Positions 33,723 through 37,337 of a stretch of 64,000 nucleotides of DNA are shown piece by piece. Numbering within the stretch: the stretch's first letter is position 1; each line of letters opens with the position of its first letter. The DNA is from a bacterium (GTDB taxonomy: Bacteria; Cyanobacteriota; Vampirovibrionia; Gastranaerophilales; Gastranaerophilaceae). The notes under the pieces were generated by a model that saw only the letters and a list, made by a program, of their open reading frames with translations, did not search any database and was not told the DNA's origin. Position numbers and translations under genes: made by a program. The stretch lies in contig JAGCBH010000029.1 of the NCBI GenBank assembly GCA_017652265.1, positions 1-64,000 on the forward strand, read 5' to 3'.

Positions 33723-34562
33723 TTAAACCTCTATAACTTCAATGTCTTTATCAACGGCATTTCTTAATGTGTTTTCAACAAATCCTTTTAATGTCATCAT
33801 GGAATTTTTACATCCCGAACATTTGCCTCTGAGTTTTACATAAACCTTATTACCGTCAATATCCTGTAAAGTAATATCTCCGCCGTCTTTTTGAAGTTCA
33901 GCCGCAATTTGTGTATCTATAATTTTCCCTATTTTAAGAATTTTTTGTGCGGCAGATAACGGTGCGTTTTCTTCCTTAGCAACTTTTTGATAATACGTAT
34001 CAATAATATCTTTGATTGCCTCTTTACAGTGTCCGCATGCCCCGCCAGCTTTCGTGTAATTTGTAACTTCTTCAACAGTTTTTAATCCGTTTGTTTTGAT
34101 GGCATCCCAAATCTGGTTTTCTGTTACATCAAAACATTTGCATATAACTTTATCTGCAGACTTATTACTGTTAATTTCATCTAACGACACATAACCGTCA
34201 GCGTGATATGACTTAAGAGCGTCTTCTAAGGCTTCATAACCCATAACGGAACAGTGCATTTTTTCAGGCGGTAAACCGCCCAGCGCATCTACTATATCTT
34301 TGTTTGTAATCTTACGGACTTCATCAAGAGTTTTGCCGATAATCATTTCAGTCAGCATACTTGAACTTGCAACCGCAGAACCGCAGCCGAAAGTCTGAAA
34401 CTTAGCGTCAATTACCACATTATCCTTGATTTTTAAATATATTTTAAGCTGATCACCGCAAGAAAGTGAACCTGCAAGCCCGACAGCGTCCGCATCATCA
34501 ATCTTGCCGACATTTCTTGGATTTCTGTAATGATCAATAACTTTTTCAGAGTAATCCCACAT
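33723..34562 (-). CDS. nifU: NifU-type iron-sulfur scaffold (three domains)
   Basis: A 279-residue full-length NifU. Residues 1-125 are the IscU-like scaffold (Cys in GSLSCGDQLKIYL, FGCGSAVASSSM and MHCSVMGYEAL). Residues 135-190 are a BFD-like [2Fe-2S] domain (VICKCFDV and ACGHCKEAI). Residues 205-279 are the NifU C-terminal scaffold with RGKCSGCKNSM. All ligand cysteines are intact. AAGGAGAAG precedes the ATG. First gene of the nifU-nifS operon; it faces away from the ncRNA candidate. Confidence 0.95.
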   Translation of the reverse strand: MWDYSEKVIDHYRNPRNVGKIDDADAVGLAGSLSCGDQLKIYLKIKDNVVIDAKFQTFGCGSAVASSSMLTEMIIGKTLDEVRKITNKDIVDALGGLPPEKMHCSVMGYEALEDALKSYHADGYVSLDEINSNKSADKVICKCFDVTENQIWDAIKTNGLKTVEEVTNYTKAGGACGHCKEAIKDIIDTYYQKVAKEENAPLSAAQKILKIGKIIDTQIAAELQKDGGDITLQDIDGNKVYVKLRGKCSGCKNSMMTLKGFVENTLRNAVDKDIEVIEV

Positions 34563-34662: not shown

Positions 34663-34691
34663 TTGACATTTTTTAATCGGTAATGTATATT
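34663..34691 (+). promoter_or_regulatory. Strong housekeeping-type promoter of the ncRNA candidate
   Basis: TTGACA (34663-34668, perfect consensus) and TATATT (34686-34691) are separated by exactly 17 bp. The expected start is about 34697, well before pflB, and this is the best vegetative promoter in the window. Confidence 0.8.
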
Positions 34692-34695
34692 GAAA

Positions 34696-34889
34696 ACCGT
34701 AGTAAGTGTTTTTTGAACACTTGTTATTCAATCTTTAACGATTACATTAGGGATTGGGGACTTATAAATATACATTTACAAAAGATATACAATCACATGA
34801 TAGTTTAGCATAACAAACATAAACTATACGTTTACCCTAATAATTACCTTTTGGTACGATTACCCCGTTACTAATCGGTAATTTTTTTT
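34696..34889 (+). ncRNA. Structured RNA candidate (6S-like architecture)
   Basis: About 194 nt without a reading frame, between a consensus promoter and a T-run. The 5' end ACCG-TAGTAA (34696-34705) pairs with TTACTA/CGGT at the 3' end (34868-34879), leaving a 2-base bulge. An inner stem pairs ATTAGGG (34746-34752) with CCCTAAT (34835-34841), and an apical hairpin pairs TAGTTTA (34801-34807) with TAAACTA (34820-34826). A small 5' hairpin GTGTT/AACAC sits at 34706-34720. A closed rod of this length with an internal loop resembles 6S RNA (ssrS). A pflB leader element is the alternative. No known riboswitch signature was recognised. Confidence 0.55.
34857..34889 (+). terminator. Terminator of the ncRNA candidate
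   Basis: ATTACC (34859-34864) and GGTAAT (34877-34882) pair, followed by a run of eight T ending at 34889. A second ATTACC at 34843-34848 could compete for the same GGTAAT, and the closing stem of the RNA also uses part of it, so alternative folds exist. Confidence 0.6.
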
Positions 34890-34996
34890 AGCAAAAATTT
34901 TTACAATTTTAACTTAATAATAATTTATAATTAGGAGACTTTTATTTGATTTAGGTTTATAATTAAAAGACACATAATTTGCAAAAGGAGAAAATA

Positions 34997-37084
34997 ATGC
35001 AGGGTGCATTGATTAGGGAAAGTGTTCTGCCTTTGTTTGACTTTAAACCCGGAAAATGGCAGACGGAGATTAATGTCAGAGATTTTATACAAACAAATTA
35101 TACCCAATATACAGGTGACAGTTCATTCTTAGCTGAGCCGACAGAAGCAACCAAAAAGCTTTGGAGCAAGTGTTGTGAACTTTTGGCTGAAGAACGCGCA
35201 AAAGGCGGTGTTCTGGATATGGATACCGATATAATTTCAACAATAACATCGCATGGTGCGGGTTATATTGATAAAGATTTGGAACAAATTGTGGGGCTAC
35301 AGACTGATAAGCCTCTAAAACGTGCACTGCAACCGTTTGGCGGTATTCGTATGGCAGAAACTTCATGCAAATCATACGGATATGAAGTTGATCCTAAAGT
35401 AACGGAAATATTTACAAAATACAGGAAAACTCATAACCAGGGCGTATTTGATGTTTATACTCCTGAAATGAAAGCTGCAAGACATTCCGCAATAATCACA
35501 GGTTTGCCTGATGCCTATGGCAGAGGCCGTATTATCGGTGATTACAGGCGTGTTGCACTTTACGGTATTGACAGACTTATTGATGACAAAATTCAGCAAT
35601 ACCAGACACTTGAAGGCGAAATGTCACCTGAAAAAATACAATTAAGGGAAGAGGTAACCGATCAGATAAGCGCACTCAAAGACATGAAAAAGCTTGGTGA
35701 AATATACGGTTTTGATATTTCCCGTCCTGCGCAGAATGCAAAAGAGGCTGTTCAATGGTTATATTTCGGATATTTGTCTGCTGTTAAGGAACAAAACGGC
35801 GCTGCAATGAGTATCGGCAGAACCTCTACATTCCTGGATATTTATATTGAAAGAGATTTAATCAGAGGTACTTTAACAGAAAGCGAAGCTCAAGAACTTA
35901 TTGATCATTTCATTATGAAATTAAGACTTATTAAATTCGCAAGAACTCCTGAATACAATGAACTATTTTCAGGTGATCCTACCTGGGTAACCGAATCTAT
36001 TGCTGGTATGGGGGTTGACGGCAGGCCGCTGGTTACTAAAAACTCATTCAGATACCTGCACACTTTAGAAAATTTAGGTACTGCACCTGAACCAAATTTA
36101 ACAGTTTTATGGTCAACAAAGTTACCTAAAAACTTTAAAGAATACTGTGCAAAAATATCTATTAAAACATCTTCGGTTCAATACGAAAACGATGACCTTA
36201 TGAGACCTGTTCACGGCGATGATTATGCTATTGCATGCTGCGTATCGTCAATGGTTATGGGTAAGGAAATGCAATTCTTCGGAGCAAGAGCAAACCTTGC
36301 AAAATGTCTGCTTTACGCAATAAACGGCGGTATTGATGAACGGTTAAAAGTCCAGGTAGGGCCTAAATTCAGCCCTATAACATCAGAATATCTGGATTTC
36401 AATGAAGTTATAGAACGATATGATGCTATGATGGAATGGCTTGCAGGGCTTTATGTTAATACCCTTAATGTTATTCACTATATGCATGATAAATATTGCT
36501 ACGAAAAAGCTCAGATGGCGTTATTGGATTTGCACGTAAAAAGATACTTTGCAACGGGTATTGCAGGTTTATCGGTTGTGGCAGATTCACTTTCAGCTAT
36601 TAAGTATGCGAAAGTTAAAACTATAAGAGATGAAAACGGACTTGTTGTAGATTACGAAATTGAAGGTGATTTTCCTAAATACGGAAACAATGACGACAGA
36701 GTTGACCAAATTGCAGTTGCCGTTGTTAAAGGCTTTATGGCTAAAATCAGAAAACACACGACATACAGAAATTCAATCCCGACAACATCTATCCTCACGA
36801 TTACGTCAAACGTTGTTTACGGAAAGAAAACAGGTAACACTCCTGACGGAAGAAAAGCCGGTGTTCCTTTGGCTCCGGGTGCTAACCCAATGCACGGACG
36901 AGATACAAACGGCGCTGTTGCATCTTTGGCTTCTGTTGCCAAGTTACCGTTTAAGGATGCTCAAGACGGTATCTCTAATACCTTCTCTATAATTCCGAAT
37001 GCATTAGGAAAAGACGAAGTATTTTTAGGGAATATGAACTTTATTTCTTTAAATAAAGGATGTTGTGAAAAGAACATAATATAA
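34997..37084 (+). CDS. pflB: Pyruvate formate-lyase core, lacking the glycyl-radical domain
   Basis: Cleaves pyruvate with CoA to acetyl-CoA and formate during fermentation. The 695-residue product has the PFL barrel, with the catalytic Cys pair in [14 protein letters not shown] (about 414-415) and pyruvate-site residues in [12 protein letters not shown] 34997 follows AAAGGAG. Unlike the usual 740-760-residue enzyme it stops after [13 protein letters not shown], before the domain carrying the radical Gly; its last residues ([10 protein letters not shown]) do not match the family. The missing domain is the next gene, in the same order. The break falls in the linker, so the pair may be a working two-subunit enzyme. 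Confidence 0.92.
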
Positions 37085-37100
37085 GAAAGGGTTTATAATT

Positions 37101-37337
37101 ATGACAACTCAACAGGAAGAAAATTTAATTAATTTACTTGACGGATATGTTGAAAAAGGCGGACACCACTTGAATGTTAACGTTTTTAACCGGGAAACGT
37201 TAATTGATGCACAACAACACCCTGAAAAATATCCGCAATTAACGGTTAGAGTTTCAGGGTACGCCGTAAATTTTAACAAATTAACAAAAGAGCAGCAGGA
37301 TGATGTAATTTCACGTACATTCCACGGCTCTCTGTAA
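37101..37337 (+). CDS. Stand-alone glycyl-radical domain of pyruvate formate-lyase
   Basis: A 78-residue protein equal to the C-terminal domain of PFL. It opens [16 protein letters not shown], continues with [15 protein letters not shown], and holds the radical glycine in RVSGYAVNF (Gly 53). It ends RTFHGSL like intact PFLs. It begins 17 bp after the core gene with an AAAGGG ribosome-binding site. E. coli GrcA/YfiD is the known precedent for a separate glycyl-radical subunit, but that protein rescues a damaged full-length PFL, whereas here the core itself lacks the domain. Confidence 0.9.

Follow-up and report, generated by a model that had tools for sequence, protein, structure and literature searches.

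A predicted RNA gene lies between a divergent nifU-like gene and a split pyruvate formate-lyase locus in the window, the 64,000-nucleotide stretch of Gastranaerophilaceae DNA analyzed here (Table 1). Its sigma-70-type promoter consists of a TTGACA hexamer at 34663-34668, a 17-nt spacer, and a TATATT hexamer ending at 34691, and the RNA would end in a T8 run at 34882-34889; the 5' end is an estimate, placed 6 to 7 nt past the -10 hexamer. A consensus promoter scan of this AT-rich region found 2 promoters against 3.1 expected, which is the level of chance, and the promoter is credible because it is conserved across seven genomes, not from the scan alone. Like the window, all six relatives of the same genus have the promoter hexamers with 17-nt spacing and a GGTAATTTTTTTT end. 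The predicted RNA is about 190 nt long in the window and about 260 to 270 nt in the relatives, and the sequence comparison lends good support to a discrete RNA gene of ~190 to 270 nt that has a promoter and a terminator to itself.

Table 1. Features of the RNA locus in the window and of related loci elsewhere; coordinates without a prefix are those of the window.
Feature	Position	Strand	Evidence or remark
nifU-like Fe-S scaffold gene	33723..34562	-	Pfam NifU_N, Fer2_BFD, NifU
Sigma-70-type promoter of the long RNA, TTGACA-N17-TATATT	34663..34691	+	Hexamers and 17-nt spacing kept in 7/7 orthologs
Predicted long non-coding RNA (putative sponge), ~192 nt	34698..34889	+	Orthologs in 7/7 genus genomes, without a conserved ORF
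5' hairpin AAGTGTT/AACACTT	34704..34722	+	7 pairs kept in 7/7, one changed on both sides
Site 1, GACTTATAAATATACATTTAC	34759..34779	+	Perfectly complementary (21/21) to the sRNA 5' region
Hairpin TAGTTTA/TAAACTA with 12-nt loop GCATAACAAACA	34801..34826	+	Invariant; its 3' arm and site 2 overlap
Site 2, ATAAA-(C bulge)-TATACGTTTACCC	34819..34837	+	Antisense to sRNA nt 1 to ~18
Terminator, ATTACC/GGTAAT stem and inner stem, then T8	34843..34889	+	Conservation, folding energies
~53-nt sRNA gene	G000:C47:7935-7992 (= L025:1469-1526)	-	Own promoter and terminator
6S RNA candidate	G000:C14:8814-8994 (L001:1501-1681)	-	Full-length to the Rfam model
Recurring TACATTTACCCC loci	L216 (G086:C14), L217-L219 (G029), L221-L225, L230-L249		Often intergenic tandem arrays

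The initial annotation had reported a perfect promoter and a T8, both of which are present and kept in all seven genus genomes, and the same conservation supports its proposal that the locus encodes a free structured RNA, ~190 nt long and flanked by a promoter and terminator of its own. These parts of its account stood, but the closing rod, the 6S identity, and the role as a pflB leader that it also put forward did not.

When the window's genome and its relatives were searched at the DNA level, the element turned up in each of the other six genus genomes. A covariance model (R2) built on the 3' 100 nt of the element and applied to 288 family genomes recovered it in 7/7 genus genomes, with no convincing eighth; a weak match in genome G112 (7.6e-4) was taken as chance because it has no sRNA-complementary site. 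The divergent nifU-like gene is the constant neighbor of the element in all seven genomes. Downstream, pflB follows in the window genome only among the seven compared, and relatives with long enough context have a rhodanese gene and/or a gene for an Lcl_C-domain protein, the domain match being below its cutoff. In the window, the pyruvate formate-lyase is split: a large ORF (34979-37084, + strand) ends within the Gly_radical domain, a separate 78-amino-acid ORF (37101-37337, + strand) bears the glycyl-radical motif RVSGYAVNF, and the pfl activase gene comes next, from 37353. A search of IMG/VR for phage carriage of the long RNA or its partner sRNA gave no exact match to either core.

The predicted fold of the region is more stable than those of dinucleotide shuffles (z of -2.52, with 2 of 200 shuffles equally good), and the seven orthologs have in common a 5' hairpin, an invariant TAGTTTA/TAAACTA hairpin, and a terminator whose loop contains an invariant GATTACCCC at 34858-34866. 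Covariation is slight because the orthologs are too similar and most paired positions are invariant; the search for compensating changes across relatives that the initial annotation advised found them at 2 of 35 pairs, but it uncovered no conserved closing rod. That rod, in which ACCG-TAGTAA would close the ends of the RNA with TTACTA/CGGT, pairs on paper and is neither favored nor conserved: its pair probabilities are about 0.001 to 0.005, forcing it shifts the predicted energy from -37.1 to -32.4 kcal/mol (a cost of ~4.7 kcal/mol), and the 5' ends of the relatives differ and are unable to form it. The ATTACC segments that had been noted lie at 34843-34848 and 34859-34864 and the single GGTAAT at 34877-34882, and all three are invariant in seven genomes, but the suggested competition is lopsided, with GGTAAT pairing at -12.5 kcal/mol with the first segment and -8.1 kcal/mol with the second. 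No ORF is conserved across the seven orthologs; ATG-initiated ORFs of at least 8 codons are absent from the window RNA, and the relatives have ORFs of 34 amino acids (two genomes), 13 amino acids (two genomes), or 8 to 9 amino acids or none.

The likely partner of this RNA emerged from the same DNA search, in which the 21-nt GACTTATAAATATACATTTAC had exact matches in many family genomes, including contig C47 of the genome that contains the window. The strand opposite these matches holds a small RNA (sRNA) gene, with TTGACA or a near match, a spacer of about 17 nt, and a -10 element followed by GGGTAAATGTATATTTATAAGTCTTGTC-nnnn-GACGAGACTTTCTTTTT, and the window RNA is therefore antisense to the sRNA. 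The sRNA is made up of a 5' GGGUAAAUGUAUAUUUAUAAGUC and a terminator hairpin, and more than 20 consecutive nt in its 5' region and at the start of the stem are invariant. Of 288 family genomes, 170 contain it according to its covariance model, nearly always as a single copy, and among the matches listed in an order-wide search, all fall within the Gastranaerophilaceae. The sRNA is thus older and wider in distribution than the long RNA. It matched no Rfam family at E ≤ 0.5. In the window genome, it lies directly downstream of an operon with genes for an ECF-type sigma factor and an LTXXQ (Spy/CpxP-like) protein, the LTXXQ match being slightly below its cutoff.

The long RNA contains two sites antisense to this sRNA, and both are kept in the relatives. 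Site 1 has a 12-nt core, ATATACATTTAC, that is invariant in seven genomes and is the main invariant block, besides the 5' hairpin, of the poorly alignable 5' half; in the relatives, the site contains a small internal mismatch yet reaches farther into the sRNA terminator hairpin. Site 2 offers an 18-nt pairing with one bulged C, including one G-U pair in the window and only Watson-Crick pairs in the relatives. Duplexes between the sRNA and the long RNA have predicted energies of -32.9 to -43.4 kcal/mol for the seven own-genome pairs, as opposed to means of -18.7 to -20.3 kcal/mol after shuffling, and the real energy was unmatched in 300 shuffles per pair. The second-site duplexes are predicted at -23.7 to -26.1 kcal/mol, and the predicted accessibility of the sites is moderate (0.26 to 0.80 unpaired).

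The words that make up these sites are largely confined to the two RNAs. Across the seven genomes, ATATACATTTAC occurs at the sRNA and at site 1, plus one stray copy in each of two genomes; TATACATTTACC occurs at the sRNA in 7/7 genomes, at site 2 in the six relatives, and also at site 1 in three of these, with six further scattered occurrences, mostly inside or antisense to unrelated ORFs. When these extra TATACATTTACC sites were considered as possible mRNA targets with a 12-mer in common with the site words, no gene recurred. An invariant 11-mer from the hairpin loop, GCATAACAAAC, which served as an internal control for the site words, had no consistently shared second locus. In two relatives, the similarity between the sRNA and the element (84% over 48 nt) continues into the promoter of the sRNA. 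As in the bacterial sRNA sponge class, complementarity to the functional region of an sRNA is conserved, and there is strong support from these comparisons that the sRNA is the predicted pairing partner of the long RNA.

The 12-nt hairpin loop GCATAACAAACA (34808-34819, + strand) is invariant in all seven long RNAs. Its conservation is not accounted for by sRNA binding, and a search found no consistent trans partner for either the hairpin loop or the terminator loop; the hairpin loop is possibly a protein-binding or second RNA-binding site.

Taken together, the element is probably a genus-specific, Hfq-independent sponge that titrates the ~53-nt family-wide sRNA, a case drawn from seven genomes of one genus. 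Under this model, the stand-alone gene would yield a long RNA that base-pairs with the sRNA and titrates it. Site 1 would cover the conserved 5' region of the sRNA and invade its terminator stem (GACUUA with UAAGUC); because site 1 reaches the 5' arm of that stem, binding should open the hairpin. Site 2 would bind a second copy of the sRNA once its own hairpin partly opens. When the long RNA is made, the sRNA would be sequestered and/or exposed to nucleases and degraded, and its removal would relieve its putative mRNA targets. Hfq (PF17209) has no Pfam match in the window genome and is present in 5 of 14 control genomes, so that a chaperone-independent mode is plausible, in which the length of the pairing may matter. 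We infer that the element is transcribed, that the duplex forms in the cell, and that control runs from the long RNA as sponge and antagonist rather than to it as a regulated target.

The main rival to the sponge reverses the roles of the two RNAs, making the long RNA a regulated partner with a function of its own, for example through the GCATAACAAACA or GATTACCCC loop, and the sRNA its trans-encoded antisense repressor. The invariant hairpin loop, being unaccounted for, leaves room for this reading. Both loops equal the sRNA sites in conservation yet have no consistent trans partner, and the sRNA is the older and more widespread of the two RNAs. The long RNA, however, has no conserved ORF, two full antisense sites for one sRNA are the anatomy of a decoy, and many genera have the sRNA but no long RNA, so that the sRNA must have other targets; we regard this arrangement as unlikely. 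If the element derived from an inverted and since decayed copy of the sRNA gene, or were a neutral repeat remnant, the complementarity would be a matter of ancestry and not of function. The 48-nt similarity that takes in sRNA promoter sequence in two relatives and the related motif arrays in other genera fit such an origin, but the site cores have stayed invariant in seven genomes as their flanks diverged, and a second, separate site, the promoter, and the terminator are all kept, making a nonfunctional remnant improbable. A type I toxin-antitoxin-like pair, with the long RNA as a small toxin mRNA and the sRNA as its antitoxin, would resemble tisB/istR, in which a small RNA and a trans RNA share ~21 nt of complementarity. 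The scale of the pairing with a small stable RNA agrees with that system; the absence of a conserved short ORF, and of any ATG-initiated one of at least 8 codons in the window RNA, argues against a toxin mRNA of this type, and the occurrence of the sRNA without the long RNA also counts against the pair, which we regard as very improbable.

The two functions originally proposed for the locus fare no better. As a cis-regulatory leader of the pfl operon, the element would act through competing ATTACC/GGTAAT helices, and it does precede pflB by ~100 nt in the window, and all three segments are invariant. Its linkage to nifU is kept and that to pflB is not, and we therefore do not read the element as a pfl leader: the six relatives keep nifU with a gene other than pflB next, R2 found the element absent from 31 other pflB loci, and the terminator precedes pflB, so that we give a leader only a slim chance. 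The 6S reading drew on the similar length of a promoter-driven free RNA ending in a T run and on a closed-rod layout. The recommended covariance-model check for 6S and other non-coding RNAs returned no Rfam match to the region (nothing in the window at the gathering score and nothing meaningful in the region at E ≤ 10), and 6S and every other Rfam family were rejected for the long RNA. Nor does the RNA fit the closed rod of 6S, whose large central bubble imitates an open promoter: the closing helix has a probability of ~0.004 and is absent in the relatives. Another contig of the same genome, C14, carries a 6S candidate (36.9 bits, E of 3.8e-6, below the 46.4-bit gathering score), which is a candidate for the divergent 6S of the lineage. 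That the long RNA itself is 6S is thus scarcely credible.

Several known systems resemble parts of the sponge arrangement. The partner sRNA resembles Yfr1 of cyanobacteria in being short and lineage-wide and in combining an ultraconserved stretch with a terminator hairpin, although its GGGUAAAUGUAUAUUUAUAAGUC is presumably not the Yfr1 motif. The element shares with IstR/tisB the ~21-nt trans pairing and differs in being without a toxin ORF, and it shares with 6S RNA (RF00013) the length class and free form of the RNA, but it is unmatched by the 6S model in a genome that has its own candidate. RosA of Bacillus subtilis (PMC8216469) is a CcpA-repressed sponge of RoxS and FsrA that was shown to destabilize RoxS. 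Like RosA, the element would be a separately encoded non-coding RNA pairing with a conserved sRNA; it differs from RosA in its unrelated sequence, in having two sites per sRNA, and in that the effect of RosA is experimental and that of the element predicted. RNA-RNA interaction or sRNA antagonism is likewise reported for sponges in Vibrio cholerae quorum sensing (PMC9732341) and Caulobacter (PMC12559287) and for CjNC140/CjNC110 of Campylobacter (PMC10470494). These are experimentally supported and have no sequence relation to the element, which is predicted.

Outside the genus, the complement of the first 11 to 12 nt of the sRNA (TACATTTACCC/C) occurs 3 to 59 times per genome searched in four distant genera, g24, g29, g50, and g56, in which the sRNA is present in variant form. 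The highest counts are 59 (G068), 57 (G029), and 54 (G119), compared with 0 to 2 for the reversed control, and in ~40 searched genomes without an sRNA match the complement never occurs more than 4 times. Many sites lie in tandem arrays of array-specific 50- to 62-nt units, mostly intergenic and of mixed orientation; repeat units in the four genera end in the exact complement of the first 12 nt of the sRNA, and many arrays hold a short hairpin, as judged by eye. Because the g24 arrays are mixed in orientation with respect to neighboring genes, they are not simply UTR target sites. Either an unrelated repeat family or another type of decoy may explain the arrays. A broader titration network, in which the 5' end of the sRNA is repeatedly matched by decoys, with a two-site sponge in one genus and repeats serving as portable binding modules in four others, is a speculative and rather doubtful extension.

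Searches of open-access papers found no described sRNAs for uncultured gut Gastranaerophilales/Melainabacteria. The present analysis adds a family-wide sRNA outside Rfam together with a genus-specific RNA that appears to antagonize it. The two would constitute a defined, predicted sRNA-sponge pair in non-photosynthetic relatives of Cyanobacteria, in a genome without Hfq by Pfam.
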